This document shows, piece after piece, positions 2,175-33,725 of a stretch of DNA of 36,347 nt. Position 1 is the first letter of the stretch, and each line of letters starts with the position of its first letter. This stretch comes from a virus. The stretch spans positions 1 through 36,347 of the IMG/VR virus record IMGVR_UViG_3300047510_001781; one strand, given 5' to 3'. The translations under genes were made by a program, and so were the position numbers. The notes beneath the pieces were generated by a model. It ran no database searches. It saw nothing but the letters and a program-made list of their open reading frames with translations, and had not been told where the DNA came from.

Positions 2175-2449
2175 TGATATGATTCTCCATAACGATGGTA
2201 TTTGTTATAGTTGCGTGGTGCAGATGTCAGAAAATCACAGCGAATCTCAAACCACTTCCAGCGGAATGAGAATCCTGTGAGTGAGCGACTACCGAAGCTA
2301 ATCAGCAGCATTGGAAATATTTCAGTAGCAGGATAATCATCCCACTGAATAACAACATCCATCAATGCGAAATGTGGATACCATCCAAGCAGTTGGAAAT
2401 ACCATTCGTGCCCGTAATCTTCGTAGTGGTAGTAGTTGAAGAGTTTCAT
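2171..2449 (-). CDS. Hypothetical aromatic-rich 92-aa protein
   Basis: Strikingly rich in Tyr, Trp and Phe (start MKLFNYYHYEDYGHEWYFQ), with a Trp-Lys-Trp cluster near residue 64. No signal peptide or clear membrane helix; a moderately hydrophobic stretch at about 44-52 is too short to span. Both ends use 4-base overlaps (2171-2174, 2446-2449), linking it to the oxygenase gene directly upstream. No family recognised. Confidence 0.65.
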   Translation of the reverse strand: MKLFNYYHYEDYGHEWYFQLLGWYPHFALMDVVIQWDDYPATEIFPMLLISFGSRSLTGFSFRWKWFEIRCDFLTSAPRNYNKYHRYGESYQ

Positions 2450-3054
2450 ACTATTTTTACAAATTGTGTCATGCAGAATCTACCATATCCTTTATTTCTA
2501 TGCTCATGTGGTATAGAAACAGTATCGACGGAATGATAGAGATTGGATGGAAATATCACCGTTGAATTATTTTTACACTCTACTGTAATATCGTAATCAC
2601 AAAAATGAAAATCACCGCCTGTAAATTTCTTAGGTTCCTTAAAAAACCATGTGCAAGCAGTCATATATGATACATCATTATGTTTTAAATAATAACCACA
2701 ATCTTCATAATATGATATTAATGTTCCATCTGTATTAAGATGAGCATCTTTGAAAAACCATGATGATTGTTGATTAATTATCTCTGGTCGAAATAGTTTT
2801 TGATTTACATTTAAAATATTAGACATATGCCTATAATCTTGCGTATAGACATTATCTAACCAAACTCCTCTATTTTCCTTACGAATATTACCATCTTCAT
2901 CTGTAGCAGATCCAGTTTCTTCGGGAGGCAAAAGTCTTTCTGGAATAGAAAGATAACATTCTAATTCCAACCAAATTAGATTTAACTCTTCTTCGGTATA
3001 GAAATCTTCTATGTAAATGTAATGAATTGGATCTGTTACTACAGTGAGTTTCAT
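2446..3054 (-). CDS. 2OG-Fe(II) oxygenase
   Basis: The 202-aa protein has the signature of the 2-oxoglutarate/Fe(II)-dependent dioxygenase superfamily. His125 and Asp127 (HND) form the HxD iron ligands, His174 in the strand ending FPSNLYHSV is the distal ligand, and Arg192 (GYGRFCMTQF) is positioned to bind the 2OG carboxylate. A GGDFHF strand precedes the distal His, as in prolyl-hydroxylase-like members. Such enzymes couple 2OG decarboxylation to hydroxylation of a protein, nucleic acid or small molecule; the substrate cannot be read from sequence. T4-like cyanophages commonly carry several. It overlaps both neighbours by 4 bases within the coupled operon. Confidence 0.85.
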   Translation of the reverse strand: MKLTVVTDPIHYIYIEDFYTEEELNLIWLELECYLSIPERLLPPEETGSATDEDGNIRKENRGVWLDNVYTQDYRHMSNILNVNQKLFRPEIINQQSSWFFKDAHLNTDGTLISYYEDCGYYLKHNDVSYMTACTWFFKEPKKFTGGDFHFCDYDITVECKNNSTVIFPSNLYHSVDTVSIPHEHRNKGYGRFCMTQFVKIV

Positions 3055-9883: not shown

Positions 9884-10567
9884 TTATGGCAATTTAATAT
9901 ACCAACCTGTTAATATGTATTTATCTTGTGTTAATACAGTATTGCCTTTGTGAACGTGTGTCATTCCAGCTGGCCAGATAACTACAGTTCCTGCTGTTGG
10001 TCTAATTCTTCTTCTTTGATATAAAAACTCGGTCTCACCTTCTCCCTCTGGAAGATCATTCAAATAAATGATCCAAGTTAATTCTCGTTGACCACACTGC
10101 CAGTTACTAGATTCATAATGGAAGTGATGATATCCACCCCCAGGTCTAGTTTTTTGCATTTTGATATCAGTAGATATCATTTTAACAGGAATCAACTGAG
10201 GATATTGACTTACATAATGCTGCAAGCAAGCTTGCAAATATTGATTACATTCATATGATAATTTATCACTTGTATAATTCAACAACAAAGATGTATCATC
10301 TCTGCCCAGTTGAGCATTTTCAAACTGTGTGCTACCAGTCATGTATGCATTTTCAGGAATTTGTTCAGGAATATCATCAATGCCATTAATAGGTTCATCG
10401 ATGATACTATCTCTCTGATATGCAAGTTCAAAAACATCAATGAATTTTTTACATACAGTTTTTGGCATTAAACCTGGCCACACTCCGACAAAATCATTAA
10501 ATTCTGCTGTTGTAATGTTTTCATCTCGCATCAATTCGAGGGGTCGAATTGGTATAATCTTTGCCAT
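9884..10567 (-). CDS. Prolyl-4-hydroxylase-like 2OG-Fe(II) oxygenase
   Basis: A 227-aa protein with a P4Hc-type C-terminal domain. The iron ligands are His150 and Glu152 (HYE, following GGGYHHF), a variant of the usual HxD; the distal ligand is His204 or His206 in the MTHVHKGN strand, and Lys216 (QDKYILTGWY) is the 2OG-binding lysine. This HYE plus HVHKGN plus DKYI-x-TGW pattern is familiar from cyanophage and marine bacterial prolyl-hydroxylase-like proteins. Sitting within the fibre block between a collar protein and a chaperone-like protein, it may hydroxylate virion proteins; that is inference. GAGGTAA precedes the ATG. Confidence 0.85.
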   Translation of the reverse strand: MAKIIPIRPLELMRDENITTAEFNDFVGVWPGLMPKTVCKKFIDVFELAYQRDSIIDEPINGIDDIPEQIPENAYMTGSTQFENAQLGRDDTSLLLNYTSDKLSYECNQYLQACLQHYVSQYPQLIPVKMISTDIKMQKTRPGGGYHHFHYESSNWQCGQRELTWIIYLNDLPEGEGETEFLYQRRRIRPTAGTVVIWPAGMTHVHKGNTVLTQDKYILTGWYIKLP

Positions 10568-10575
10568 AAATTACC

Positions 10576-13224
10576 TCAATATACTTTAATCAAATACTTA
10601 ACACGGACATATTTATTCATGATTGGAATCTTCTTCTGTGGAGAAAGATTTACTGTTGGAACTATTTGTTTGGTCGAGTTCAATGTAAATGTAGCAGTAT
10701 TTGAAGTAATTTGCAACTGTGATTGATTGAACTGAACAGTGAGAGTATTTCCGTATGTTGTTGGGAATGTTCCAGCAACTGTTCCTGAACCAGTGTTGTT
10801 TCCCCACCCATATTGTGTTTTTGGATCATTAAACGCAGTTTCAGAAATATAATGAGAATGAGTTAAAGCACCCCCAAATGCACCAGGATCAAAAGGATCT
10901 GTGGTAGCATTAGTCGAAGAGGTATCAATCATAGCTAAATGATCGCCAGCAGCATTATCTAATACAGGAGTATTTGATTTTGGAGATCTCCACCACCAAC
11001 CATAGGTTACTGTATCTGATGTATATGGAGCACCATACAATTCGTCAGCAGGTGATGGTCTATCGGCAATCCATCTTCCATCAACACCAGATCCAGATCC
11101 AGAATCGCCAGCGCCACCATAAGAAGGAACCCCCCACCCAATAAATGAAATATCTTCATCTGTTTCTTGACCAGTAAGCATGAAATGAGTATGCTGACCA
11201 ATTTTTGTGAACACATCATCAAGCGGCCCAACAGTTGCACTGATATATCCATTATTACCAATCACAAAATCTACATCTGTAGTAACACCACTGTATCCAG
11301 TAGTTCTAATAGCACCCAAAACATAGAAAGGTCCATCAATATCAGTTGGTGATCCATCATATACTTGCTCAGGTGGTCTAGCTCCTTGAGTGTCAACAGT
11401 ATCAATAATCCAGTTTCCTCCCGAACTTCCCACTTGATTGGCATCACCTGTTGATGCCGAAGATGGATCTGCTCCTTTGTATGTAGTGACGGAAGGCGAT
11501 GATGCATTATTTCCATCAATAGGACCTACGCCAACTAATTTTCTATTTCTATAGTTAGGTAATTTGAAAGTGCCAGAATATGAATTTGTAGATGAACTAT
11601 AAGCTCCACTACCACCATAAGTATTACCAATAACATTCCATAATTCATAATATGTACTAACTGTCAATTCTCTACCATCACATTCCATCCATCCAGGATA
11701 CCTAGATTCCATAGTTCCGTCAAGATCTCCCGATGCTCCTTCAAAAGAATCATCCTGGAATCTACTAATTGGCAGAACAGTTCCAATTGCCAATCCATCT
11801 TCTTTCTTTTCTTGACGAGCATCATTAGCTTGATTAATGACCATTAATCTACTATACCACTGACCTGTCATCAATTCTGTGGTTGGTGCCGTCGCCCAAG
11901 TTCCAACACTCCACGTTATACCAGTCAAATCACCAATAGAAACTGTTGTGCTAACAGAACCACCTAAAGTAGCACTACTGGTTAGTTGTAAACTAATTGT
12001 GTCTCCTTCTACAACATTAACAGGAGATGCAGAATATGTTCCGCCGTTTTTAGAAATTAACGCGCCATTAGTTGTAGTAACTTGAACTCCAGTTTGAATG
12101 CCAGTTATAGAAACAGCATTGCTATTAGTTGCTGTTGAAGGTGGTCTGTTTGTTCTATTTTTAAAAGTTACTGTATCTGGAGTTGTATCTGGGGTAGCAG
12201 AATTAAATATTTTCCATGGTTGTGGAGTGTAATCACCTACTTTAATTTGTGCCCATGTTTGATCTCCATAATTTGATCCAGCATACATCCAAATACGAAC
12301 AGTATCATTCAACTGAACTGTTGCTGGGAATGTTCCTATAGAACCATTATTAATTTGCACTCTTGGTAAAGGAGAAAGAGGTGTAGTTTCAACCCCAGAA
12401 GAATTAATTAATTTAGAAGATTCTAAAGTTACATTCAAAGTAACTCCAGAAGCAACACCAGTAACAGTATACAAATCTCCATTACTATTAACCGCAGAAG
12501 AATATTGCTGACCTGGCGTGGCACCTGTTATATTTTGAAAATTAAAAGTATCGATAGAAGAATCTGGAGGATTGCCAGTTGATACACTCCAGTTTACTGG
12601 CAAACCAGTTCCAATTGTTAAAGTAGTTGTAATAGAGGTGTTATTAGCAGTAGATGTTAACTGCCTTAATTGAATATAATCTCCATTAGAAACAGTAATA
12701 GATGAGCTAGTAAAACTAGCGCCACTCAACACACCATTTCCATCTACAGTTGCCGTGGAAGATTTTGCAATTTTTGCAGTATTTCCACCAGTTCCAGATC
12801 CACCATTACCCAGAACACTAGCAGTTGCGGTTGCAGATAATCCAGCAACTTGATATACTTCAGTAGTATATACATTAGTATTTAATGGTTGATCAGTTAA
12901 ATTTTCAAATGATGGTGGTGGGTTAGGAGCATTATTAGGAGCATTTTGAGTTGTGATATACCAAGTAGAACTAGCGCCACCTATGGATAAAGTTACATAT
13001 ACTTGTGTTGCGTATTCACTAGAAGAAGTTGCTCTAAGATCAATTACCGTTCCATTTTGGGCATTCCACCCAGTTAGAGTAGTAGTATATCCACTAGTAG
13101 AACTAATACCAGCAGTATTTGGAGTTGGTTGAGTTACCTTAATTGCGATATTAGATGCTGTTCCTATAACTGATATAGGAACATATAATCCACTACTAAG
13201 ACCGCTTACGGTTACATAAGCCAT
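10576..13224 (-). CDS. Tail-fibre/collar protein with HxH tip, 882 aa
   Basis: Residues 1-430 hold about four repeats of a roughly 100-residue beta domain, with recurring FxNxT (FENLT, FQNIT, FKNRT) strands and a later strand of the LSIGG type. Residues about 470-560 form a phage tail-collar domain (PGWMECDGRELTVSTYYELW to FKLPNYRNRKLVGVG). The C-terminal part has two HxH motifs (QHTHFM and THSHYI) and ends YVRVKYLIKVY, like the other two collar proteins here. HxH motifs bind iron in the T4 gp37 tip. Likely role: trimeric fibre or adhesin for host attachment. A T4-type late promoter and AGAGGA ribosome site precede it. Confidence 0.85.
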   Translation of the reverse strand: MAYVTVSGLSSGLYVPISVIGTASNIAIKVTQPTPNTAGISSTSGYTTTLTGWNAQNGTVIDLRATSSSEYATQVYVTLSIGGASSTWYITTQNAPNNAPNPPPSFENLTDQPLNTNVYTTEVYQVAGLSATATASVLGNGGSGTGGNTAKIAKSSTATVDGNGVLSGASFTSSSITVSNGDYIQLRQLTSTANNTSITTTLTIGTGLPVNWSVSTGNPPDSSIDTFNFQNITGATPGQQYSSAVNSNGDLYTVTGVASGVTLNVTLESSKLINSSGVETTPLSPLPRVQINNGSIGTFPATVQLNDTVRIWMYAGSNYGDQTWAQIKVGDYTPQPWKIFNSATPDTTPDTVTFKNRTNRPPSTATNSNAVSITGIQTGVQVTTTNGALISKNGGTYSASPVNVVEGDTISLQLTSSATLGGSVSTTVSIGDLTGITWSVGTWATAPTTELMTGQWYSRLMVINQANDARQEKKEDGLAIGTVLPISRFQDDSFEGASGDLDGTMESRYPGWMECDGRELTVSTYYELWNVIGNTYGGSGAYSSSTNSYSGTFKLPNYRNRKLVGVGPIDGNNASSPSVTTYKGADPSSASTGDANQVGSSGGNWIIDTVDTQGARPPEQVYDGSPTDIDGPFYVLGAIRTTGYSGVTTDVDFVIGNNGYISATVGPLDDVFTKIGQHTHFMLTGQETDEDISFIGWGVPSYGGAGDSGSGSGVDGRWIADRPSPADELYGAPYTSDTVTYGWWWRSPKSNTPVLDNAAGDHLAMIDTSSTNATTDPFDPGAFGGALTHSHYISETAFNDPKTQYGWGNNTGSGTVAGTFPTTYGNTLTVQFNQSQLQITSNTATFTLNSTKQIVPTVNLSPQKKIPIMNKYVRVKYLIKVY

Positions 13225-13247: not shown

Positions 13248-13255
13248 TATTTATA
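13248..13255 (-). promoter_or_regulatory. T4-type late promoter TATAAATA
   Basis: The 8-base element reads TATAAATA on the minus strand and overlaps the stop codon of the upstream Ig-like gene. Predicted start near 13242 leaves an 18-base leader with AGAGGA before ATG 13224. It should be read by RNA polymerase carrying the phage late sigma factor (gp55 type) with sliding-clamp activation. Confidence 0.75.
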
Positions 13256-15086
13256 GGGGTGTGGAAGTATTGCTACTTGCATAATAAATTGTGTTTATTG
13301 TAGCACCAGTTTTATTTGAAAAAACCCAAGAATTTGGAGTTGAATCAATATTTACAGTTACAGGATAACTTGCACTATCGGTTCCACCATATCCAGAAAC
13401 ACTCATAGTAAAAGTAACCGAAGAACTATCTACAAAATCTTGAATATTTCCTGTAATAGTTTTTGTTTTAGTTCCAGAACTAATTGGTGTTGCAGTTCCA
13501 ACCCCTTGATCAATACTACCACTTAACGCATATGATGTTGTCCAAGATATAGTTACTGTTCCACCAAAATCAACTATATTAGGTTCTACCTGAAATAAAG
13601 TAATATTGGGTAGTTGTGGATTTACATAAACTCTTAGAGTTTCAGTTACACAAGCATCTACTGGATTACATGCTGTTAACGTATAATCACGATATCCATC
13701 ACCATATGTAGGTGCTCCAGGATAAGAACCAGCACCAGAAGTAGGAACTGTAGCAGTTAATTGAACTGATCCATCTTGTGCTAAATTGCTGCCAACCCCC
13801 TGATTAATAGAAACACTGCCTGTGGCATTACTCGTAGACCACGTTAAAGTAAATTGAGTATCTTGATCTGGTATTGTTGGATTATTTGAAAACGAATCGA
13901 TTGTAGGCAATGGATATGCTTGCACATAAGCAACTGCTGTTACAGTATATCCTGCAGAATTTACAACAGTAAATGTAAATGTATTCAATCCTGCAGTTGT
14001 AATAACTTTAGTAGTAGTTCCACTTGCAGCAACACTACCCACACCATTATCAATGCTTCTACTAGCTAAACCGCCGCCACCTCCCCAAGTAGAAGTCCAA
14101 GAAAGAGTTACACTATCACCAACACTAACTTCTGCTTGATTTGGTGATGATACTCCATTGATAGAAAGTGTTGCAGTTGGAACTCCAACTACTGTCACAT
14201 CAACACTAGCTGTAGTTGTTGATAATCTATTTGTTACTGATAAAGTATATGTTTTTGTTCCTGTAGTAGATAACAATCCTGTTAATAAAGGAACCCTAGT
14301 TCCAGATCCAGATCCAATATTATTATTTGCTGGATCATCAAGTTGACTGTCTGGAAAAGTAGAAAATTCTGTTAATGATGGTTGAGATTCTGCATCAGAA
14401 ACCGTCCAACTAAGGGTTGGAGAATCTATACCAACTGTAAGATACTGTTTATTTGTAGTTAATTGAGCTCCTGGAGTTGGAATCTGTAAGTTTAATGTGA
14501 ATGATGCTAAAGCATACACATCACCAGCATTCTGTAAATTTGCACTGCCAACTCCACCAGTGCTACTGAATTCAGGACTAGAAGAGATATTTGAAGAAAA
14601 AGTTAAATATCCATTAGTTTGTCTTTTATTAGAAGGAACAGTAACTGTAACATCTCTCCAAGATTCCCAATAGGTATCTTTTGCTCCATCTCCTCCTCCA
14701 TATGCACTTGACCCAGAACTACCCCAGGAATATGCTAATACATTAAATCCACCATCAGAAACAGCTAGATAAAAATCTTCACCAGAATTATTAGGTCTTT
14801 CATGACCATTCGAATCATTACCAGCTCTAACTTTACATGTTATACTTTCACAATATTTTAAATTACAAAGACCATAAGCAGATCTATTCGAAACTCTTGG
14901 GCTACTCCATGTTCCCATCATTAAATATGAATTACCTGTTGGTGTAACCATACCACCAACTTCGCCATTATCATCTCCTTGAGTAGTTCCTGGAGCACCT
15001 TCACCCGATCCATTTATTTTTGTGCCAGTAAGTTCAGAAAAAGTAAAATTTACTCCAGGATAGTAAGTAATGCTTAAATTTGCCAT
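13251..15086 (-). CDS. Ig-like repeat virion protein, paralog A, 611 aa
   Basis: The N-terminal 200 residues form a Gly/Ser-rich domain with three Cys (GLCNLKYCESITCKV). The rest is a series of Ig/PKD-like beta-sandwich repeats, each starting like PTIDSFS and containing a (V/S)xLxWxTS strand followed by SI(N/D)xGVG. The C-terminal 200 residues are nearly the same as in the next two genes and end in a half domain (FSNKTGATINTIYYASS). Such repeat stalks are typical of fibre or adhesin proteins exposed on the virion. No signal peptide. Its ATG lies 14 bases after the upstream stop with a weak ribosome site. Confidence 0.75.
   Translation of the reverse strand: MANLSITYYPGVNFTFSELTGTKINGSGEGAPGTTQGDDNGEVGGMVTPTGNSYLMMGTWSSPRVSNRSAYGLCNLKYCESITCKVRAGNDSNGHERPNNSGEDFYLAVSDGGFNVLAYSWGSSGSSAYGGGDGAKDTYWESWRDVTVTVPSNKRQTNGYLTFSSNISSSPEFSSTGGVGSANLQNAGDVYALASFTLNLQIPTPGAQLTTNKQYLTVGIDSPTLSWTVSDAESQPSLTEFSTFPDSQLDDPANNNIGSGSGTRVPLLTGLLSTTGTKTYTLSVTNRLSTTTASVDVTVVGVPTATLSINGVSSPNQAEVSVGDSVTLSWTSTWGGGGGLASRSIDNGVGSVAASGTTTKVITTAGLNTFTFTVVNSAGYTVTAVAYVQAYPLPTIDSFSNNPTIPDQDTQFTLTWSTSNATGSVSINQGVGSNLAQDGSVQLTATVPTSGAGSYPGAPTYGDGYRDYTLTACNPVDACVTETLRVYVNPQLPNITLFQVEPNIVDFGGTVTISWTTSYALSGSIDQGVGTATPISSGTKTKTITGNIQDFVDSSSVTFTMSVSGYGGTDSASYPVTVNIDSTPNSWVFSNKTGATINTIYYASSNTSTPL
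13692..13898. repeat. Direct repeat copy 1 in Ig-like paralog A
   Basis: Bases 13692-13754 and 13834-13898 are identical to 15542-15604 and 15684-15748 (63 and 65 bases), at a constant offset of 1,850. They code for the PTYGDGYRDYTL region and the DQDTQFTLTWSTS region of the Ig-like repeat. The near-identity over about 200 bases suggests recent duplication or gene conversion. Confidence 0.85.
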
Positions 15087-15100
15087 AACAGATACTTATT

Positions 15101-16870
15101 TTACAATGGAGTTGTTGTATTACTACTTGCGTAATATGTAGTGTTTATAATTGCACCAGTTTTATTAGTAAAAACCCAGGGATTTGGAGTTGTATCTATT
15201 AAAATTGTTACTGGAGTAGTTTGTGTTTCTGTTCCACCATATCCCTCCACAGATAAAGTATAACTTATACTACTATTTTCAACAAAATCTTGTATATTTC
15301 CTGTTGGGGTAAAAGTCTTGGTTCCACTTGCTATAGGAGTTACCGAACCAACACTATTATTAATACTACCAGTAAGAGCATAAGTAGTAGTATAAGAAAA
15401 AGTAACTGATTCTCCTAAATTAATTGTTTGTGGTTCTACCTGAAATAAAGTAATATTTGGTGGTTGTGGATTTACATAAACTCTCAAAGTACTTGTAACA
15501 CAACTATCAGCTGGATTACATGCTGTTAGAGTGTAATCTCTATATCCATCACCATATGTAGGTGCTCCAGGATAAGAACCAGCACCAGAAGTAGGAACTG
15601 TAGCTGTTATCTGTGCCGATCCATCTTGTGCTAAATTGCTGCCAACTCCTTGATTGATGGAAACGCTACCAGTAGCATTACTTGTAGACCACGTTAAAGT
15701 AAATTGAGTATCTTGATCTGGTATTGTTGGATTATTTGAAAACGAATCAATTGTAGGAGCTGGATATGCAGTTACTTCAACAGTAGCAGTAACTGATTTA
15801 GTAGCGCAATTGTTAGCAGTTAAAGTATATACAGTTGTGCCATTGGGGGGAGTAACTGTGACGGAACCAGAAGCTGCCACTGAACCTACACCTTGATTAA
15901 TAGATCTAGATCCATTAGTAGTTCCAGTAGTAGTCCAAGAAAGAGTGACAGTATCTCCTGTGGTTATAACACTATCACTTACCGTGAAAGAAGTAATAAC
16001 TGGATTTTGACAAACAGTAACAGTTTGAGATGAAGTTACTGGACCACCGCCAGGACCACTAGCAGATAATGTATATGTTGTTGTAGATGTAGGCGATACA
16101 TTAGTATTACCATCTACAGCAACTGTGCCAACCCCATTGTTTATCGAAACATTGTCAGCATAAGATGTAGTCCAAGCAAGATTAACACTATCACCTACGT
16201 TAATATTACTAGTTGGCGATTTAGTAAAACTATCAATTGTTGGTGCAGCAAAACTATATTCTATACGAACAGCACCATCTCCACCATCGCCAGCAGGTCC
16301 ACCTTGGTTACCTCTCCCACCTCCACCATAATTTCCCCCATTTGTATTTCCACCATTATTTGCATTTGTGCCACTTAATGTTGTTCCATTTCCACCACCA
16401 GAACCTCTTCCAGAATTATTATTTTGGTTCCCAGCACCACCACCCAATCCACCGTTATCATCATCAGTTCCATTTTGCCCATTATTTCCAACAGAACTGA
16501 TAATTGGAGTTCCACTAGCACCATTACCGCCAGCAGTTCCACCACCAGAATCATCTGTTCCTCTTTCACCACCAGCGCCAGTAACAAAAAATCCAGTTCC
16601 AGTTACTTCAGATTTTGATCCATTCTCCCCACCATCTCCTGATGGAGCTTTTCCACCAGAACCAACTCTAACAGATAGAGATGAACTGGATGTAATATTT
16701 ACAGTTGCACGACAAAATCCACCACCGCCGCCGCCGCCGCCGAGACCGTCTCCATCGGTATCATTAAATCCAGATCCACCTCCACCAATACAAGTAATTG
16801 TTACTTGTGTTACTGCAAAGGGTATTGCCCACGTAGATGTTCCAGGTGATGTAAAATTAACTGTTGGCAT
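15101..16870 (-). CDS. Glycine-rich Ig-like virion protein, paralog B, 589 aa
   Basis: Residues 1-200 form a glycine-rich head (starting MPTVNFTSPGTSTWAIPF, then long Gly/Asn/Asp stretches), like the glycine-rich receptor-binding domains of phage adhesins and gp38-type proteins. Residues 205-590 hold four Ig/PKD-like repeats with the motif SI(N/D)xGVG. The C-terminal part matches paralog A, ending YYASSNTTTPL. Likely a surface fibre or adhesin; the head would face the receptor. The ATG follows the upstream stop by 9 bases. The Gly-rich head is GC-richer than its surroundings in the complementary GGX codons. Confidence 0.75.
   Translation of the reverse strand: MPTVNFTSPGTSTWAIPFAVTQVTITCIGGGGSGFNDTDGDGLGGGGGGGGFCRATVNITSSSSLSVRVGSGGKAPSGDGGENGSKSEVTGTGFFVTGAGGERGTDDSGGGTAGGNGASGTPIISSVGNNGQNGTDDDNGGLGGGAGNQNNNSGRGSGGGNGTTLSGTNANNGGNTNGGNYGGGGRGNQGGPAGDGGDGAVRIEYSFAAPTIDSFTKSPTSNINVGDSVNLAWTTSYADNVSINNGVGTVAVDGNTNVSPTSTTTYTLSASGPGGGPVTSSQTVTVCQNPVITSFTVSDSVITTGDTVTLSWTTTGTTNGSRSINQGVGSVAASGSVTVTPPNGTTVYTLTANNCATKSVTATVEVTAYPAPTIDSFSNNPTIPDQDTQFTLTWSTSNATGSVSINQGVGSNLAQDGSAQITATVPTSGAGSYPGAPTYGDGYRDYTLTACNPADSCVTSTLRVYVNPQPPNITLFQVEPQTINLGESVTFSYTTTYALTGSINNSVGSVTPIASGTKTFTPTGNIQDFVENSSISYTLSVEGYGGTETQTTPVTILIDTTPNPWVFTNKTGAIINTTYYASSNTTTPL
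15542..15748. repeat. Direct repeat copy 2 in Ig-like paralog B
   Basis: The partner of 13692-13898, with two perfectly matching blocks of 63 and 65 bases at offset 1,850. A third, more diverged copy of the same coding region lies in paralog C around 17320-17520. Confidence 0.85.
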
Positions 16871-16879
16871 ATCTCAAAT

Positions 16880-18826
16880 TTATAACGGCGAAGTTCCGAG
16901 ACTACTTGCGTAGTAAGTAGTATCTATGGTTGCTCCTGTTTTATTGCTAAATGTCCACGTATCAGGAGTTGTATCGACATTAACAGTAATTGAATATGTT
17001 GCTGTATCTGTTCCACCAAATCCAGCGACACTCATGGTAAATGTAACGGAAGAATTATCTACAAAATCTTGAATATTTCCAGTAATTGTTTTCGTAGCAG
17101 ATCCAGAACTAGCGGGAGAAAGCGTTCCAACACCTTGATCTATAGATGCTGATGTTGTATAATCATTGCTCCACGTTATAGTTACAGTTTCCCCATAATC
17201 AATTGTGGATGGAGTTATAGAAAAATCTGGAATTGGTGGTTGAGGATTTACATATACTCTTTCAGTATCTGTGACACTAGTTCCTGCAAGATTTGTAGCA
17301 GTTAGAGTATAATCTCTATATCCGTCTCCGTATGTAGGTGCTCCAGGATATGCTCCAGCACCAGAAGTAGGAGCAGTAGCAGTTAATTGCGATTCTCCAT
17401 CTGCAGGTAAATTAGATCCAACACCTTGATTAATTGAGATGGTATTTGCATTACTCGTAGTCCATATTAATTTAAATTGCGTATCTTGATCTGCTGGGTT
17501 TGGATCTGCAGAAAAAGAATCAATAGTTGGTGGAGGAACCGCTTCAACATTAACTGTAGAAGTAATAGTTCCTGCAGTGCCTCCTGCTTGGTTAACAGCA
17601 GTTAAAACAAAACTATAAGTTCCAGCTGTAGTTGGAGTATATGTTGTTGAACTATCAACATTGCTGGAATTTGATATTAATGAACTTCCATTAACAGTTA
17701 AAGAAATACTTGTAGCATTTGTTGTTGTCCACGATAATGATATTGAATTATTTGTAGTTACATATGATGAAGGTGATGCTGTAAAAGTATCAATTACAGG
17801 TGGTTGATATAAAGTTACTGATCTACTAAGAGTAGCACCATCAATACCATTATATTGGGCAACTATAGTATAGGTAGTTGTTCCAGCGCCAACTCCTGTA
17901 TAAATTGCTGTGTATGCTTGACCATCTGTTCCGTTTCCTTGATTAACACCGTTGATTAAAACATTACCTGCTGTATTAGTAACCCATGTTAATTCCACAC
18001 TTTCACCAACTGTTCCTGTAACGTTCCCTTGTGTAGAAGTTCCAGTTCCAACAGCAATACCATAAAAATTAATTTCAGGATAAGTAATAATTACTCTACC
18101 CCCAGTTCCATCAGAATTACTTCCACCTATACTATAACCATATGATTCGCTATCAGTATCAGATAAAGTAGGTGCTGATGGGTGATATGTAGAATTGTAA
18201 GCAGAAGTTCCTGCCTGACCGCCAGCTGCACTAAAAGAATTATCTTGCCCAGCGCCGCCGCCAGCACCACCTGGCGATCCACCGCCGCCAGCGCCACCAC
18301 CAGATCCATCGCCAGATTTGTTGGTGCCATTACCACCACCACTAGCACTTATGGTTGTGCTTAAAGTTTTACTAGATCCATCCGTGCCAGTTCCACCAGT
18401 TCCAGAGTTTAAGCTACCGCCGCCTCCGCCGCCGCCACCACCAGCAATACAAATATAAGTGCTGCCCCAAAGAATAGCAGACGCGCCGCCACCTCCTCCT
18501 CCTGCTCCTGAAGATCCACTACCACCTGCATTTCCTCCAGTTCCACCAGGAAGAGATCCAGTTCCGCCAGGTCCACCGCCAGTTCCAGTAGATCCATTAT
18601 TACCACCCTGACCGCCCCCACCAACATAACAAGTTAATGTTTGCCCCGTAGAAGTTAATACAGCAGTTCCTGATAATTTTGCTCCATCACCAGAAGCGCC
18701 ACCAGGGCCGCCTGCATCATTACCACCCGATCCACCTGCTCCACCAAAAATTGTATAGGAAAATCCCTTTGTGCCAGTTGGAAGAGCTAATGTTGCTCCG
18801 TTTGATCCAGTATCGAATGTTGGCAT
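16880..18826 (-). CDS. Glycine-rich Ig-like virion protein, paralog C, 648 aa
   Basis: Residues 1-240 form a second glycine-rich head (start MPTFDTGSNGATLALPTGTK, long GGGG/GGSG tracts), different in detail from paralog B. Then come Ig/PKD-like repeats (TFTASPSSY to SLSWTTTNATSISLTV, and SADPNPADQDTQFKLIWTTS) and the shared C-terminus ending YYASSLGTSPL. The C-terminal 200 residues are more diverged than in A and B. Likely a fibre adhesin. The ATG lies 2 bases after the collar gene's stop; expression depends on the long late transcript. Confidence 0.75.
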   Translation of the reverse strand: MPTFDTGSNGATLALPTGTKGFSYTIFGGAGGSGGNDAGGPGGASGDGAKLSGTAVLTSTGQTLTCYVGGGGQGGNNGSTGTGGGPGGTGSLPGGTGGNAGGSGSSGAGGGGGGASAILWGSTYICIAGGGGGGGGGSLNSGTGGTGTDGSSKTLSTTISASGGGNGTNKSGDGSGGGAGGGGSPGGAGGGAGQDNSFSAAGGQAGTSAYNSTYHPSAPTLSDTDSESYGYSIGGSNSDGTGGRVIITYPEINFYGIAVGTGTSTQGNVTGTVGESVELTWVTNTAGNVLINGVNQGNGTDGQAYTAIYTGVGAGTTTYTIVAQYNGIDGATLSRSVTLYQPPVIDTFTASPSSYVTTNNSISLSWTTTNATSISLTVNGSSLISNSSNVDSSTTYTPTTAGTYSFVLTAVNQAGGTAGTITSTVNVEAVPPPTIDSFSADPNPADQDTQFKLIWTTSNANTISINQGVGSNLPADGESQLTATAPTSGAGAYPGAPTYGDGYRDYTLTATNLAGTSVTDTERVYVNPQPPIPDFSITPSTIDYGETVTITWSNDYTTSASIDQGVGTLSPASSGSATKTITGNIQDFVDNSSVTFTMSVAGFGGTDTATYSITVNVDTTPDTWTFSNKTGATIDTTYYASSLGTSPL

Positions 18827-18828
18827 TT

Positions 18829-19719
18829 TTAGAACTTAATAATGTATTCTACTAACATGAATGGTTGAACTGCTTCATCTAATTTATCCACTCCCTTTGT
18901 TTTTACAGAAACATTAGTGACAATATTTTCGGGACTAACATTAAAAGCACTATAACCATACTTAAAATTCTGAGAATATGTTGTAGGTCTGGTTATTCTA
19001 TGAGTATGACCAGCGCCTGCTGCGGGTGCATTATTTTCAGCAACTTCCTCTAAAATATTTTGACCAGATGAATTAGCGCCATCGCCACCAGATTCATCCG
19101 TAGCACTATTCTTAGTGTTTCCAGATTGAGCAGAAGTATGAGGCCCAGTATAATTTAAGACCGTTTGATTCCCTCCATGACCATGACCTTGAAAATTTTC
19201 CTCATTTAATTCAAATGTTTCCGTTGCTTTAGCAATAATATATTTACTATTCCCCAAAAGTGCTAACCCAGAAGATCCATTAGCATCCACAGCAGGAACA
19301 GCAAAGTTGCCACTATAATTAAAAGAAATTTCATTACCAACGTTAGATGTTATTTCTACGCCAATACCAACTTTATATTTACCATCATCAGTAAAATCAA
19401 ATTGATAAGTTCCTGTTCCACTCCCACCAACTATCACTTTAGATCCCAAATCTGGCAACATAAATCTTGTAGAATCTACTTGATCTCTCTTAGATTCTTT
19501 CAAAAATTTACAATCTGCACCAGTTCCCAAAACTGCTGCTAAAGCAGGATAATCAGATGCTTTTAAAATTGCTCCATTGCATTTTAAATATCCAGCAGGT
19601 ATAACTGTTTTAAATTTAGAATCCAAAGGACTATTGTATCCATACAACGAAGTAGTTAACATTTGTATGGTTCCTACCATACCACCATGTTTTGCTTTTT
19701 CTCTGGTATAATTTGCCAT
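18829..19719 (-). CDS. Tail-collar fibre protein, 296 aa
   Basis: The N-terminal 100 residues form a phage tail-collar domain (IPAGYLKCNGAILKASDYP, then RFMLPDLGSKVIVGG), the fold seen in T4 gp12-like short fibres. The middle and C-terminal parts contain two HxH motifs (QGHGHGGN and AGHTHRIT), likely metal-binding in a trimeric tip, and the protein ends MLVEYIIKF as the other collar proteins do. Likely a short fibre or fibre tip contacting the host. It follows the next collar gene by 1 base. Confidence 0.85.
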   Translation of the reverse strand: MANYTREKAKHGGMVGTIQMLTTSLYGYNSPLDSKFKTVIPAGYLKCNGAILKASDYPALAAVLGTGADCKFLKESKRDQVDSTRFMLPDLGSKVIVGGSGTGTYQFDFTDDGKYKVGIGVEITSNVGNEISFNYSGNFAVPAVDANGSSGLALLGNSKYIIAKATETFELNEENFQGHGHGGNQTVLNYTGPHTSAQSGNTKNSATDESGGDGANSSGQNILEEVAENNAPAAGAGHTHRITRPTTYSQNFKYGYSAFNVSPENIVTNVSVKTKGVDKLDEAVQPFMLVEYIIKF

Positions 19720-20981: not shown

Positions 20982-23900
20982 TTAGATCTCCACTAACCAC
21001 CAACCTTGAGCGGAATTAGGAATACTTGACGAACTGCCATCATTTAGAGTGCTGCCTGCATAAATTAATCCAAACCCAGCATTAGGTGTTTGAATAACTA
21101 ATTCACCACCATCGTATCCACTTAAAGATGAAGTGAATGTTCCACCAAGAATAGTAGAACCAGTGTTGGATACATCTCCCTGAACTGCTATTCCAGTGGG
21201 TGCTCTCATTACCAATGATACATTATAGGTTAGATTTCCGCCAATATCAACAAATCTTATCATATCTCCAGTAACAGGGTTTGTCGGCAATTTAATAAGG
21301 GTGATTGCAGAAGGAGCAACAAAGTAGTTGACATTCGCAACAGCAGTTGTGACGGTTGCATTAACATATACCCACCTTCTAGCACCCGTGGTTCCATAGT
21401 AAGAGGTAATTCCACCAAGATCAATAGTTCCAGTATTATTGACTTTAAATCTAGTAACACTGTCTTGTTGAACTGTTAGATTACCTCCTTGAGTTCCACT
21501 ACCATTTACCAATAGATTGCCAGCATAAGTATTAGTTCCACTACCATTAGCAGATAGTGTTCCAGCAACTACAATATCACCCGATGAATTATTTAGAGAT
21601 AGTTTAGATGTCGTTCCATCTTCAGCAAAGATGTTGAAGTTTCCGCCATTAATAATGGTATTACCGTTTGCAGTGTCAACTTGGAACTTGATAGCAGGAG
21701 ATGCCGCACCATTAGTAATCTTGAAGAATTGAGTATTAACTGTAGTGCTACCATTTAATGTTAAAGTATTTTCTACTGTTAATGTTCCTGCAATATTAGT
21801 GTTACCGCTAGAAGCAGCAACTGTAAACTTGCCTGCCAGCGTATTTCCAAACGAGGCATCTGCCCCCAAACCAAATGCAATAGATCCAACTGCAGTGAGA
21901 CTGCCAGTTGTTGACTCAACTTCAAACTTAGTAACTGCAGGATCGCCACCATCAGTAAGTCTCAAGACTTGAATATTATTATCAAGTAGTGCAGCAACCT
22001 TGACGATTTCTAAATCAGATAGTCTCAAGTAATCATTAGTTGTAATAGCACCACCAAATTCTGCAGTAGTAACTTCATCTTCAGTTGTATTAATACCACC
22101 ATCATTAATAATCCAAGAAGCATTATCAAACTTAACAAACTTACTCAATAGAACACCATCTGGGTGATCTGTTCTCAAAACAGTTCCATCTTGAGCACGA
22201 AGAACTTTAATTCTTAAACCATTAGGATCTGCAGTGTTTGAAATATTAGTAATTTCAGTTACTTTGAGAAGTTCACTCTTAGCTTGATTGTCTGGTTGTT
22301 TTACAGTTCCTGTTGCTGCTGCTTGAGATACATTTGTTCCTGTTTGCGAGAAAGTAAATGTATTGTCGCCCGTAACAGTAATTGTTACGTTAGAACTTAA
22401 AGCAATATCAAAGTTGTTATCAGAGCAATCAATTTCTACTTTTAATCCAGTAGTAAAACCATGTGCTTTAGTTGTAGTAATCGTAGTAACGTTAGAATTT
22501 CTAGCAACAAAAGCAATCTGAGCAGTATGTCTTGCTCTATCAACTAAAATGTAATCACCTACCGAGAAATCATTTGCAGTAGCAATCTGATCTAATCCAA
22601 GGAAATATTCACTTGTAGTAGATCCAGAAACTTGAAACTGAGTTCCACCCCAGTATGTTGAACTTCCCGCGTCAATATTTTTGTTGATAATAGTATATTT
22701 ATAGAAGTCAATATTTCTATTCTGAATAGAACCTTCAGAATGAGAAACAGCAGTAGTTCCCCAAGCACCACGAACAACTTCAACAGTGCCAGAATTTAAA
22801 CCACCATTTAAAATGATATTGCCATCAACTTGTTGACTTGCTTTTACAAGCAACGAGTTATTAATAGTAGTTGTTCCACCATCAGAAGCAATACTTAGTT
22901 CACCAGCATTACGGCAGAGTTGAACAATAGAAGCACCACCAGTATCGAATAATCTCAACTCATTTGCTTGAGTAAAGATTCTTACAAACTGAGAACTTGT
23001 TATGGAAGGACCAGCACCAATTTCAATACTATCGCTATCAAAAATAGAGTTTCTATTTCCTACTCTAAAGAATCCAGTAGTGTTATTCCAAGCACCACCA
23101 ATAGTAACTTGCGAATTGTGTAATACTCCACCAGATAGTGTTCCTTGAGATACAGTGCCGATATCAATAACAGAAGTCTTGGAATTTCTATGAATATAAA
23201 GATTTGATGTAGTAGCAGCATCGCCAACTGTTAAAGTTTGCGTTGCTGCATAGTTACCAATATCAATTGTTTGTGTGCCTGTTGTAGCACTATTGTTACC
23301 AATATCTAGACTTAATACATCGCCAAAAGCATTAACTGTAGTAGCAGTCGTATTATAAAGATTTAAAGTAGTGTTAGTGGTATCTAGATTAGTTCCAGAA
23401 ATAGTAGTATTGCCCTTAACTTCTAAGTTGCCAGTAAGTCTACCATCTCCACGAACAACAAACTCTCTATCTAATAGAGCTTCATTAGATACATAACCAG
23501 TTACAGTAGTAGCATTGAAATTAGATGTAGTATCAGTTGTCGTAAAGTCAAATGTATCTTCAGTGCAATTTGTAATTGTAACTGAGTTTGAAGAGAATTG
23601 AGTATAACCAGATGTAGATACACTGATCTTTACATTTTCTCCATCAAAGAAACCATGGGGAACTCTTGTCAGAACAGTAACTGTAGATCCAGTCTTAGTT
23701 AGTTGCTCTAGTAATACAGGAAGTGTAGTATTTACACCTAGTCTTCCATAGAGAGAACCCGTTACACTTTCATTTACTGTATAAGAATTAGTTTGATTAC
23801 CTCTAGTGAGAGTAATATTTCCAGTAGCATATGCAGTGTTACCTACAGTCAACCCACTCAATTCATAACCAGTTTGGTTAGTAATGGTGATAGTATTGGT

Positions 23901-26900
23901 TCCTGAAACTGCGGTAACTCTATAAACACCACTCTTAGTAGAGTTAGGACCATCTTTAAATTCTACGTTAGCAAACCATGTAGTGTCTACAGAAGATAAT
24001 CCATGTGATTCTACAGTAGTGATAGTGCATGATGTAGTAGAAGTATTATTATATGATTGAATTGTTAAAGATGTAGTAGCAACTCTAAGTGCAGAAGAAA
24101 TGCCAGGTGTTTCACTATTACCACCAACAATAAATGCATCACGAACTGCTAGTTCAGTCTTAGCATTCGTTGTTTCCGTTAGGAACTTAGGAACACTTCT
24201 ACCAGAAATGTAAGTATTGCCAACAACATCTAAGTTAGCTCTTGGTTCAGTTTCTTCAGATACCCATGCAGTCTGATATGCAGAATGAGCAGCTCTAGCA
24301 ACTGTGTTAATACCTAACTTAAAGTCTCCATATGTAGAAGTTTCTGTTCTGATTACTTCAGCACCAATTACACCAAATTCTTTAAATGCTGTTCTAGATG
24401 AAGCAACTTCTATTGATGGTTGTGCTACTGAATTTACTGGATAACCGTTAGCATTATTTTGATTGATATCAAATACTGGTAAATTAGTATTAATTCTAAC
24501 AACAACTGAATCCGCTGCTCCGTCAAAAGGATCTACTTCATCAGAAACAACAGACCAGACTCCATTCAAATTAACTAGAGATCCAGTAGCTCCTTGAATT
24601 CTAATCTGAGAACTTGCAGTAATTCCTAAGGAATTATTTGAAACTCCAGTGTTATAATTTAAGCGAATCTTTGTTCCTGTTTCGCTACCCTGAATACCTA
24701 ATAGTTGTGGATCTGGATTCTCTGAAGTAGAATTTGTAGTTATTGAAACATAATCATTTGCAAAGATCCAACCCAAAGATCCAGTAAATAAAGTCTGCAA
24801 TCCTTTGAATTGCATATCACCAGACTTCAGAGGAGATTTAGATCCAAAGTTAGTATTCTGAGTTTGTGTAGGACCGTTAGTAGTAGTTCCAAACGTATTT
24901 GCAAAATCAGGTGCTCTATTAGATAGAGCAACTCGCATAGTGTAATCTTGAGATCCTCTGGTATTGAAATCAAAAATAGCAGAAGTAACAGTATTTTGGT
25001 GAATTAAAATATCACCCGTCTTTTGACCAGAAATATTAAATTCTAGATATGCATCATAACCAACTGCAGTTCCACTTCCAGTTACAACCTTAAGTGATGG
25101 ATAGTTTTCAGTAGTTCCAAATGCAGTAGCATTATTAATAATCAATGGAGAATTGAATGTGCTCTCCCCAGATCCATCAACTCCATTAACTGTGATAATA
25201 TCATTAAATGTTACAGGAGAATCAAAAGTAGTAACAAGTGTTCCAATATTGTCGGCATCATCAGCAGACTCGACTAATTGTGCTGATTCCAGGAACGTCT
25301 CTTCGCCTGTAATAGCGTTGATCTTACGGTTACCGATATAGAGGTCACCGTTGGAGTTCAGACCCGTGTAGAAGACAATACCAGCGTTTTCGCGCTTTGC
25401 TTGTGCATAGAAATCTTGAGTATCTGTAAGAACAACTTCTTGGCGAGCAGGGAAACCAGTCGAGTAGTTACCAGGACCAAAACCAAGATATTCAAACGTG
25501 TGGTTACCAGAACGAGCAATAGATGGTCTACGAAGTTCAAGATAAACTTTTTGTTCGAGTGGATAATCAGAGTCACCTCCAATAGGAATCTTTCTGGATT
25601 CGGATCCAGCAGAAGCAGATCCATTTTGTGCCTGAACAGCATTTTCGCCAGAATAAGTATAAGAACCAGTTCCAGGGTCAGCAATAAAGTCTAGAATTGT
25701 TTCTTTAGTCAATGATCCTTTAGCATCATTGACAGTAACTAAACCATGAACATAGTTATCTGCTGCAGAGATTGTTGCAGGTGGATCAAGTAACGTTTCT
25801 GATTCTGGATCAATTCCCTTATACCACTCTGGGTCATTTTTATAGAACTCAGGATAAATTTTAGAAATTGGTTGAGAGAACTTAAAGTTCTTGAAGTTAG
25901 TTCCGACACCAGAACCAGTAGGATATGGAGAAATATCACCACGAACACAAGTTAGATAGTAAACACCATCTTGTTGACCAGGAATTCTTCTACGAATTTC
26001 GTCGATATCAAAGATATAGAAAGTGCTTTCCATATCAGAAACATCTTCAACAGAAGCAACGGTATAAGAAACACCATTATCATCATTTACAGTATCACCA
26101 GGAGTTACAGTATAAGTGTTTGCTCCCTCAATGACATATAAATTATTTTTAATATCATTTCTACCTCCATTTGGGTTTTCCAATAGAGTTGCTGTAACAT
26201 CACCTTGGGTAAATACAGTTTCCGTGAAAGGACTATAGTTAATTTCAGAGTTGCCACTGAAATCTTTAAGAATCATGTAATAATTATTTTCATAAGCAAA
26301 GTAAGAGTGAACATATGCAGTTCCTTTGCTATTTCCATCCCAAGTAACTTTATTGGTATTATTGGAATTTGCTATGCTGTTAACAAATATACCATCTCCT
26401 CCTTCTGGAGCATCAATCTTAACAGTAGTGAATAACTTAGTCTTATAATCATTATTATCTACACCAATATCAAATACAGTTAATTCGAGATATTCTTTGC
26501 CTTGAATTTCTTTTTTCTTGGCAGATTGAATAGTAAAAGCAACCTTAGATGTTGTTTCAATTCTCTTTGCATAAGTAGAGTTATATGGATCATAGGTTGA
26601 AACAAAATTAGGATCTAACGTTACTAGTTCTGTCTTTGTTAAACCTAATCTTTCTCCGCTAGTAGGAGCATTAAATGTAGCAACTGTATTTCCAGCTGCT
26701 GTTGGCTTTAGAACAATTTTTTGTGGAAGAAGTCTTCTCTTTTCATCTGTTCTAATCTTAAATACAAAACCATTGAGAGGATCACGAACCGTTTTAAGAT
26801 TCTTAGGAATTACATAACGGAATCTGTAAATACGATCTTCGGGTGTTCTATTATCTTCGATTCTTTCATACCAAGAATCAGTAGTTCTTAGTCTGGTTTC

Positions 26901-29900
26901 ATAATCAGATTGCTTAATTCTAGGAAGAATCTGGTTTCCTGACTCTAACGTTTCGATATACCACAATCCTTCATCGCCTACTGCGGCATCATATTTCAAT
27001 GGTGAACGACGCTTATCGGCATAAGTATAGAATTGAGCAGTGCTTCCAGGAGCAAATGTTACTGGGTTGATATTATCAATAGCATCTGTAAATGTCAGGT
27101 GAATTGTGAAAGTTTTTGTTCCTGAGTATCTTGCATAGTAGTAAGTCTGTGGATCTACAACAGTTCCACCGAAGTTAGAAGCAAGAGTTGGTAGCGAAGA
27201 ACCTGTAATATCTGCTCCAGTTCTGAAAAACACTCTCTGTGGAGTGATATTATCAGAAGGAACATCAAATACATGAGGTCTATCTGTTTCAAGAATTGTG
27301 CTGGAACCAGACAATAAGTTTGTCTGATAGCGATGGAGATCATAATTAGTATCTAGAAGATACTGATAAACATCAATCTCAACATCTTTATCAATGCTAT
27401 CTGTTTCTGGCGAATAGATATAAATTCCAGCACAAGAGTTCTCTTCGCTAGTGGCAAGAAGCAGAGTTTGCTGGTTATCACCATTGAATCCAATACTGTT
27501 GGAGTAATCAAATGGATCTGTCTTTCTTCCTGGAGCAATTACATAATATGTTGTATTTGTATCAAATCCTTTTGGAAGACGAATCAAACGCTTATCTGGA
27601 TTTGTTCCTTTCTTTGCTCTAGGAACAAGTCTGACAGGAGTTCCAGTCTCCATATCGTGTGGGTTAGTAGTATTGTTTCCTTGAGAATCTTTTTCTACTA
27701 AGTTGAATAGGGTTGCTCTTTGTGCTAGAGAAGCAGTGCTTAATACCGAAGGAACACGAGGAACAGTTCCGATACCAGAATTTAAAATAGTATCAATAAT
27801 ATTGAAGTAAATAATAATACCATCTACAACACTAGCACATTCTCCACCTGGGGATGAGATTGATCCATCACCTAAAGCAGTGTAATTGTAGTCTTGAATT
27901 ACTGCTTCATCAGTTGTTGGTTCTAAATCAGTAGACCAAACTCCTGTTTCTAGTTTAACATACAAATTAACGCTAGGTAATGTAGAAGTAGCATTTACTG
28001 TTGTTCCTAAATCAAATCTAGATCCATAAACACCAAGTTGAATTTGATTAGCAGCAAGACCATTTTGACCATCACCAATTTTCTTGATGTATGCGTTGTC
28101 TGGAATGGTTGATGTTTGACTAACTACCGTGTTTTGATCGGCAGGGATGGTGTTAACAGATTCAACCTTCATGCCAATTGCCAATCCAATCGTGCTGGGA
28201 ACCGTAACAATTGAAGATCCAGATACAGTAGAAGCACCAGTAATATAAGTATCATGATTTCTCATTGCAGAAATCGCTAGATTTCTAACATACTTCCATG
28301 CTTCTAGGGTTTCTGTCTTCTCGTTTTCGATGTAATCTAATGTGAAACCATCTTGGTTGCCATCTGTAGTATCATTAGCAAGAGGAATTGCAGTATAGTA
28401 TGCTTCAGCAGCATTAATTACATTTTCATTTCCACCTAGTCTTAGATCAGAAACTACCGCTTCAACAATATATCCAATATCTCTCTTACACTTACTTGCT
28501 TCACTAACTTGTGACCACTGACCAGGATTTACAACAGGAAGATCTGATAGATTTCCATTAGATAGAGCAGTAATAAGAATATGTGATAATGTATCAATAG
28601 TATATCTTACATTTGCACAATCATAGGAACCATTAGTAACTACTGGCAGATTGTTTAAATTACCAGCAACTAGTGTTGTTGTAACAATACCAAACAAGTT
28701 AGTAATACTATCTTGAACATCTATACAAGTAGAAGCATTTCCAGACTCGTTGTAAGTAACGTCTGAACCACCAACACTATAACTTGGAGGACCAAAAGAT
28801 AAATTAAAATTCTTAGAGTAAAGTTGATTTGTTACTGCTTTCTTCGCTGCATCTCTAGCAGCATTAAAAGCAGTTACAGATTCAGTAACTTCATCAACTA
28901 AACCATTTGTTAGTAATGTTGTAGCGTTGGCATAATATTCTCTAGTAGCATCTACAGTAAATTCATTGCCACCCCAGAATAAATCTTGAGCAATAGAATC
29001 AACAATAAATCCAATATCTCTACGGCATTTTGCTTCACCGTCAAGAGGAGTTCCTCTCGTTTCAGTAATATCAGTTACATCGGTTGAATCTCCTGAAGAA
29101 ACTGCAGTTGTTACTATATTGGTTAATGTAGTAATAGATGCCTGAACATCATCACAAGATGCTGGATCTGTGTTGCTTCCTGTTAAAGGATCTGCTGTTA
29201 AAGTTAAATCTTTTGAGTATAACTGGTTTGCAACAGCTAACTTCATCATATCTCTTGCTTTATTAAAAGCAACGATAGATTCTGCCTCCTCTCCCACTAA
29301 ACCATTTGAAAGAGGATCTAGGTTTTCATCAAAATATTGTAACGCAAATTTTCTAGAATAAACATTACCAAGAATAGAAAGATCTAAAGATACTGCATCA
29401 ATAAAGAACCCAATATCTCTCTTACACTTAACTTCTCCTTCAGGAACAGTTCCTGTGTTCTCTGCAGGTAAACTAGACAAATTGCCAGCAGAAACAGAAG
29501 AAGTAACAATTGTGGTTAAAGTTGTAATTGCTAACTGAACGTTTGCACAAGATGCTGGATCTGTGTTGCTTCCTGTTAAAGGATCTGCAGTTACAGTAAG
29601 ATCTTTGACAGTTAACTGATTAGCAACAGCCAATTTCATCAAGTCTCTTGCCTTGTTGAAAGCAGTATTTGATTGTGTTTCCTCACCCTGCAATCCGTTT
29701 GTAATCCAAGCATTTCCTGCCTGATTAAAGTATTGTTGAATAAATTTTCTGCTATATTGATTGCTATTTTCTAGTGAAATATCGAGAGAAATAGCATCAA
29801 TAAAATATCCAATGTCTCTCTGACATTTTGCTGGATCAGGATTAACAAATCCAGGATGACTTATAGCAATTTGTGCGTAAGCTCCATTGATAATTTCCTG

Positions 29901-33129: not shown

Positions 33130-33151
33130 AAGTGACTTCCTTCACACGGAG

Positions 33152-33223
33152 AGCCCCCGATCTGATTCGAACAGACGACCAGCGGTTTACAAAACCGCTG
33201 CTCTACCACTGAGCTACAAGGGC
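33152..33223 (-). tRNA. tRNA-Thr(UGU)
   Basis: A full cloverleaf of 72 bases: 7-bp acceptor stem with G-T pairs, anticodon stem GCGGT/ACCGC, loop TTTGTAA with anticodon TGT, and a TTCGAAT T-loop. CCA is not encoded. It reads ACA codons, which suit an AT-rich, Thr-rich virion proteome. The 5' end is 1 base from the upstream gene's stop; the terminator follows. Confidence 0.92.
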
Positions 33224-33224
33224 A

Positions 33225-33491
33225 TTAATCATCCTTTGGAAGTAATTCTGGATTTTCAATTTGAAGATCAAACATCAAAGGATGCATTTCTTCCATTATT
33301 AAGTAATTTGATGTTCTCCACATATCTTCATCATCATAATCTCTATGAGATAATGCTTCAGTTTGAACTGAGGGATGATCTTGAATTAGTTGTGGTAATT
33401 CATCAAAAGTATATGGAAGATTTTGTATAAAATACATACGAACAACTTGCCCCATATAAAAGCAATATGCTTGTGATAATGTGTATTTCAT
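33225..33491 (-). CDS. Hypothetical 88-aa protein between tRNA genes
   Basis: A Tyr/Met/Leu/Asp-rich, probably helical soluble protein (MKYTLSQAYCFYMGQVVRMYF...), with no recognised domain. It sits between tRNA-Leu and tRNA-Thr, 1 base from the latter, in a unit that appears early. The 3' arm of the 33496-33522 hairpin overlaps the only ribosome-site-like bases (GGAAA) before its ATG, so processing or structure may control it. Function unknown. Confidence 0.65.
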   Translation of the reverse strand: MKYTLSQAYCFYMGQVVRMYFIQNLPYTFDELPQLIQDHPSVQTEALSHRDYDDEDMWRTSNYLIMEEMHPLMFDLQIENPELLPKDD

Positions 33492-33495
33492 AACA

Positions 33496-33606: not shown

Positions 33607-33619
33607 AGGTGATGAGACA

Positions 33620-33721: not shown

Positions 33722-33725
33722 ACAG

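Follow-up and report, generated by a model that had tools for sequence, protein, structure and literature searches.

A split Ig-like domain as the probable joint between interchangeable head proteins and the short tail fibre of a T4-like cyanophage

The DNA studied here is a stretch of 36,347 nucleotides (IMG/VR virus record IMGVR_UViG_3300047510_001781, positions 1 to 36,347; "the window" below), which, judged by tail genes that match cyanophage families, is a fragment of a T4-like phage of marine cyanobacteria. Three paralogous genes, A, B and C (Table 1), occupy a slot that is bordered by the tail collar gene on one side and the short tail fibre gene on the other. An original prediction, made from the sequence alone, had described these as fibre paralogs whose N-terminal heads could be swapped or deleted by homologous recombination. 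Our analysis suggests that the tail shared by the three proteins is more than a recombination handle, as its end would supply the missing part of the first immunoglobulin (Ig)-like domain of the fibre. The explanation that we favour, with a probability of about 0.7 given the sequence profiles and predicted structures, is that a single shaft accepts interchangeable heads, each of which docks without a covalent bond by completing the shaft's first domain.

Complementary parts of a predicted Ig-like domain

The short tail fibre holds three complete copies of an Ig-like repeat domain of about 100 residues, which match a profile built solely from complete internal repeats with independent E-values (iE) of 7e-22, 4e-20 and 1e-21; the third copy spans residues 349-442. 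The fibre N-terminus (acceptor) matches this profile from position 22 onward, and the last 32 residues of each slot protein (donors) match its beginning (Table 1). In profile-profile alignments made with hhalign, the window-type donors occupy positions 1-19 (P 0.001) and the acceptor 23-103.

Relatives were gathered through the bordering genes, because direct searches gave almost nothing: neither a near-identity megablast search nor tblastn with B and C found a match in named phages, and searches of viral contigs with the slot proteins matched a single, near-identical contig. To the named cyanophages, 158 IMG/VR loci were added, this contig included. The cut point differs between lineages, lying near profile position 22 in the window, near 57 in most relatives and near 92 in others. 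In the majority class, fibres begin at positions 56-61 and the slot C-termini match weakly, to about 38-53; the acceptor profile is clear at 56-103. In the class near 92 (Sf-CH1b and loci L035, L093, L107, L108, L112 and L115), slot proteins end at 90-91 (tabulated iE 4e-9 to 2e-20) and the fibre has the last strand only, the profile-profile alignments of the Sf-CH1b type giving 1-92 for donors and 94-103 for the acceptor. By these comparisons, the slot C-termini and the fibre N-terminus are complementary parts of one Ig-like domain, the cut varying by lineage; that is, the sequence profile and the predicted strands (below) indicate an incomplete domain whose missing strand lies on another subunit. 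Aligning donors and acceptors together as separate rows placed the donors on acceptor columns, and that alignment was dropped; a later one was made without L074, in which the open reading frame (ORF) upstream of the fibre encodes an oxygenase.

Joining the pieces lengthened the profile match. When a donor of the position-57 class was joined to its own acceptor, the mean gain was 6.6 bits (133 donors, not dereplicated), and with shuffled donors it was 0.9 bits (n=665); the match reached profile position 25 or lower for 109 of the 133 joined donors and for 27 of the 665 shuffles. After dereplication, 76 of 79 donors gained more than 2 bits, as against 91 of 395 shuffles. The window donors gained 8.4 to 12.0 bits, the match becoming the full 1-102. 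Control stretches from the same protein, taken either upstream of the donor or from the head, extended the match to the domain start far less often.

Predicted structures are consistent with this. The AlphaFold2 model of window fibre residues 1-346 (17 sequences; mean predicted local distance difference test score (pLDDT) 85.9) has complete repeats that open with two short strands (109-112 and 117-119; 232-235 and 240-242), and the first, truncated copy is without a counterpart of these. For locus L033, a single chain running from donor into acceptor was modelled, Gln standing in for the stop codon between the genes. Strands are predicted at 105-109, 114-117 and 123-130 in the donor and at 148-154, 162-169 and 172-179 in the acceptor, the block having a pLDDT of 74-86 with a lower value (62) at the junction. 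Alignments of this chain to Ig- and PapD-like domains in the PDB cross residue 131; the best (root-mean-square deviation (rmsd) 2.2 over 80 residues) has a Z of 8.1, and values near 8 are common for the tool and mark a common sandwich, no more. In the model, donor and acceptor of L033 thus fit one beta-sandwich fold when covalently chained, and they may meet in the same way in the virion.

Coupling of slot genes to split fibres, and natural fusions

Among 179 loci or records, 98 carry both the collar and the fibre gene, which gave 65 after dereplication; 47 without a collar and 34 without a fibre in reach were left out. Loci L027, L093 and L114 stand outside the 65-locus table, and the classes of two loci were set by hand, L115 being placed near 92 and L141, whose fibre ORF is broken, near 57. 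Each of the 57 split fibres (49 near 57, 6 near 92, the window near 22, and L141) comes with one or more slot genes of at least 250 residues, and none of the eight unsplit fibres does; six of the latter are fused to a head and two are without the domain. Since related lineages are counted here, the coupling is strong but is no independent-sample test.

The fused genes (L028, L062, L146, L156, L163 and L167) encode in one ORF a head, then a complete first domain, then the fibre. The fused head of L062 is 41% identical to the free-standing head of the first slot protein of L064 (L064 s1; E 7e-38), and that of L028 weakly matches window protein B (E 9e-6). In ACG-2014h, which has no slot genes, an internal stretch of the fibre resembles the head of A (27% over 135 aa, E 3e-9).

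The number of slot genes among relatives ranges from 0 to 6, with none in S-H9-1 and ACG-2014h, two in S-CAM4 and ACG-2014e, three in S-PM2, Syn1, S-RIM44, S-RIM32 and S-CAM1, and six in S-CAM3. A stable paralog number in relatives and a lack of recombinants had been named in the original prediction as grounds for abandoning it; the number proved variable, and whole-head replacements were seen (below), so that among relatives this check favoured the prediction.

Shared tails and exchanged heads

The last 200 residues of A, B and C are 62-78% identical (A and B, 78%), and the heads found no match among the three (BLAST, E 1e-5), so that the predicted pattern of about 200 common C-terminal residues behind differing heads holds. 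Gly_rich_2 is matched in the head of B only (E 4e-13), A and C being without a Pfam match. Cysteines had been taken as a mark of the head of A; they occur in the heads of B and C as well. The exact 63- and 65-base blocks shared by A and B were recovered (13692/15542 and 13834/15684), both at an offset of 1,850, together with further blocks of 26, 22, 18 and 29 bp at the same offset; exact blocks shared by A and C or by B and C are at most 25 bp.

The similarity between A and B forms a patch, with 89% identity over 338 nt by blastn (13582-13919 vs 15432-15769). Nucleotide identity per 40-codon window is 0.87-0.91 there and drops to 0.63-0.72 toward the C-terminus, so that one whole-gene duplication with even divergence does not explain the patch; a later exchange is likely, to judge from this profile of identity. 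We therefore rejected the notion that A and B are simple recent duplicates, high identity being confined to the patch and lower on its C-terminal side.

Across 29 lineages, delimited by a fibre identity of less than 85%, 37 of 83 slot proteins had their best tail match in the same phage (chance, 2.1), and none of the 83 had its best head match there. A comparison of 320 head pairs agrees: in 270 of them, tails are more alike within the phage than across the matching pair. As these pairs are non-independent, we rely on the 29-lineage comparison instead. Locus L027, whose fibre is 70% identical to that of the window, illustrates the pattern: the head of A is 67-68% identical to that of the second slot protein of L027 and their tails 61%, and tail identity within each phage is 62-78% (window) and 76-80% (L027). 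The A-type head has also shifted within the array, being third in the window and second in L027. On this sequence evidence, tails evolve in concert within a phage and heads do not.

Closely related strains point to the unit that is exchanged. Between the S-RIM44 strains KX349295 and NC_047734, homology breaks off with the final base of the first slot gene and returns for the final 261 nt of the second, continuing at 97.8%; between the ACG-2014j strains US103 and US23, it is lost just after the first slot gene and returns for the final 206 nt of the second. These breakpoints indicate that the exchanged unit is head plus spacer, its limits being the end of the preceding gene and the tail of the gene itself. 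Heads move between lineages as well: one is 83% identical between S-RIM44 and ACG-2014j, the fibres being 42% and the tails 52% identical. Sequence comparison thus supports an exchange of heads by recombination on a conserved tail, and the slot has the makeup of a modular array, in which relatives exchange the variable heads that sit on a constant attachment part.

Swapping of heads, one half of what had been proposed, is borne out by the whole-head replacements between strains; for deletion, the other half, the near-identical contig (5 differences in 21,767 bases) offers no example, as its three genes and their order are unchanged. Three of the five differences are in B, at window positions 16727, 16743 and 16744, clustered in an 18-base stretch of its glycine-rich head. 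The expectation that the cassette varies without a reverse transcriptase agrees with the Pfam hits of 18 window proteins (part of the ORFs of the fragment), which include none, so that no reverse transcriptase of a diversity-generating retroelement was found near the variable genes.

Table 1. Features of the slot and its borders in the window (iE, independent E-value; gains in bits refer to joining with the acceptor)
Feature	Position	Strand	Description
Short tail fibre (phrog_4924, Collar domain)	10576..13224	-	882 aa; acceptor-bearing shaft
Two complete domain copies in fibre	12195..12927	-	Residues 100-216 and 225-341
Acceptor piece	12949..13218	-	Fibre residues 3-92; profile positions 22-102 (iE 3e-10)
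Slot gene A	13251..15086	-	611 aa; N-terminal head, Ig-like repeats, conserved C-terminal tail
Donor of A (last 32 aa)	13254..13349	-	First strand(s) of the split domain; profile 1 to about 22; iE 0.41 alone; +8.4 bits joined
63-bp block	13692..13754	-	Identical to 15542-15604
65-bp block	13834..13898	-	Identical to 15684-15748
Slot gene B	15101..16870	-	589 aa; Gly_rich_2 head (PF21722), Ig-like repeats, conserved tail
Donor of B (last 32 aa)	15104..15199	-	Profile 1-25; iE 0.017 alone; +12.0 bits joined
Slot gene C	16880..18826	-	648 aa; glycine-rich head, Ig-like repeats, conserved tail
Donor of C (last 32 aa)	16883..16978	-	Profile 1-21; iE 0.052 alone; +11.8 bits joined
Tail collar protein (phrog_4714)	18829..19719	-	Upstream border of slot

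Proposed mechanism and alternative explanations

In the mechanism that we propose, the locus would be an array of cassettes encoding tail-fibre arms that can replace one another. The product of each slot gene would consist of a variable N-terminal head, which probably binds receptors and would face the host, of Ig-like spacer repeats, and of a constant C-terminal end; this end would be one part of an Ig-like domain, the other part of which is the N-terminus of the fibre encoded next door. As donor and acceptor would complete one beta-sandwich, any head with the right end could dock without a covalent bond. The donor sequence is common to the ends of all head genes, so that homologous DNA lies on both sides of each head, namely the donor of the gene before it and its own donor. 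Homologous recombination there could replace, add or remove whole heads, with gene conversion keeping the donors matched to the shaft.

Alternatively, an ancestral head-fibre gene may have been broken by a stop within the domain, leaving pieces that do not interact and tails that stay alike through gene conversion. Fused genes do exist, and gene conversion alone could hold the tails alike. However, dozens of lineages retain the broken piece at the end of nearly every paralog (1-6 per phage), the three different cut points are always complementary, and the fibres of S-H9-1 and ACG-2014h, which lack slot genes, keep no broken piece; we consider such a relic unlikely. It is also rather improbable that the shared tail attaches the slot proteins elsewhere, to the baseplate or a chaperone, and that the likeness to the fibre reflects common repeats. 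Ig-like repeats are indeed common in phage tails and single majority donors match weakly, but in all three classes the donor match stops where the acceptor begins, control stretches taken from those proteins fail to lengthen the match, and slot genes and split fibres are coupled without exception in the 65 dereplicated loci. Stop-codon readthrough or ribosomal frameshifting could join the last head covalently to the fibre, as is suggested by L030-L034 and some other loci, where the last slot stop is near the fibre start and in frame. We rejected such joining as highly improbable, because gap lengths modulo 3 are even (34/34/25 for 93 junctions, not dereplicated) and because earlier slot genes, which have the same donor end, do not adjoin the fibre.

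Several observations weigh against docking by domain completion. Alone, the window donors match the profile weakly (iE 0.017-0.41), the majority donor profile aligns weakly too (1-34, P 0.006, Prob 6), and the second donor of L117 gains only 0.3 bits on joining. The L033 chain is artificial, the mean pLDDT of its five models runs from 71 to 53, and the Z of its best structural match is an ordinary one. Sister lineages make the coupling counts non-independent. In L074, unlike other loci, the last slot gene and the fibre are separated by an oxygenase-like gene (L074:1384-2004), and small extra ORFs in Sf-FR1 do not fit the simple pattern. An evolution study of S-TIM4 (PMC6224464) reports that hypervariable regions were not preferentially mutated during host adaptation; this result neither tests nor supports the slot.

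One of the Sf-FR1 ORFs, s6 (L016:7402-7578), has 58 residues, is essentially a headless donor and lies just upstream of the fibre; its profile match is weak (10-57, iE 0.17).

The short tail fibre of T4, gp12, is a trimer. A more tentative extension of the docking model, which we hold to be possible rather than probable, is a detachable multi-head fibre in which: a gp12-like trimer would offer three identical open domains, so that several arms might sit on one fibre and heads might be mixed within a virion or perhaps within a fibre; the split joint, cut at three or more positions, would have remained functional; and lineages would alternate between having one covalently attached head and having several that plug in.

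Relation to known systems

In chaperone-usher pilins, an incomplete Ig-like domain is completed in trans by a neighbour (donor-strand complementation). The Ig-like domain split between slot protein and fibre is similarly incomplete and would be completed in trans by its neighbour, and the class near 92, in which the fibre N-terminus would give the last strand to the slot protein, resembles pilin geometry. Unlike in pilins, the cut point moves between lineages and several partners share one acceptor. Pilin and chaperone entries (3f85, 3f83, 5y9h and 5dfk) are among the PDB alignments, with low likeness (Z 6-8, rmsd 8-14, several domains). Since no dedicated periplasmic chaperone or outer-membrane usher was found among the Pfam hits of the 18 window proteins, the slot system would work like donor-strand complementation without being a member of that family.

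Recombination that exchanges heads is already known, and so are adhesin sets made up of several proteins. T-even phages exchange adhesins of the gp38 type by recombination at conserved motifs, and the slot likewise has variable specificity pieces between conserved stretches, swapped by homologous recombination; it differs in exchanging whole N-terminal heads with spacers, in carrying several of them, and in a constant stretch that would also dock. The branched tails of G7C and CBA120-like phages carry several receptor-binding proteins that attach by the N-terminus and bind by the C-terminus. The slot is similar in having several proteins (presumed receptor-binding) with a conserved attachment part on one tail, and differs in that the constant part is C-terminal and the variable part N-terminal, with attachment proposed to occur through completion of a split domain. 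In open-licence full texts, we found no paper on fibres with donor-strand, strand-complemented or split-domain attachment, which does not prove that none exists. The new element would be a plug formed by a split domain whose cut point differs between lineages.

In the S-PM2 and Syn1 annotations, the slot proteins correspond to T4-GC 737, 738 and 739, and their borders to the gp12-like T4-GC 736 and 740. Those records name the former only as virion structural proteins, as is mostly the case for slot proteins of named cyanophages, and leave the split-domain link unannotated. If docking by domain completion is true, it would account for the way in which abundant marine phages can carry several host-recognition heads simultaneously and swap them without breaking tail assembly, each head bearing a universal plug and the shaft a socket. 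It would also provide a sequence signature for finding head proteins of cyanophages, most of which are annotated only as virion structural proteins, and make the way in which phages change attachment parts directly testable in isolates, e.g. S-PM2 and Syn1. A domain cut variously by lineage yet always complementary would be an unusual natural record of split-protein evolution.

Gene order and other features of the window

The window has the slot order of Kyanoviridae, with phrog_4714 upstream of the slot genes and phrog_4924 downstream, followed by a 2OG-Fe(II) oxygenase gene (9884-10567); another such gene is at 2446-3054. In nearly all relatives viewed, these oxygenases lie directly downstream of the fibre, often two or more of them, and they might modify residues of the fibre or of the glycine-rich heads.

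A protein of 4023 residues, encoded in the operon of the slot genes at 20982-33053, matches Pfam Phycobilisome over residues 729-795 (E 2e-9) and, close to the cut-off, a carbohydrate-binding module. Four tRNA genes (Thr, Leu, Lys and Met) are located upstream of the tail operon, at 33151-33798, and an ORF of 535 residues at 34127-35734 is without a PHROG or Pfam match.

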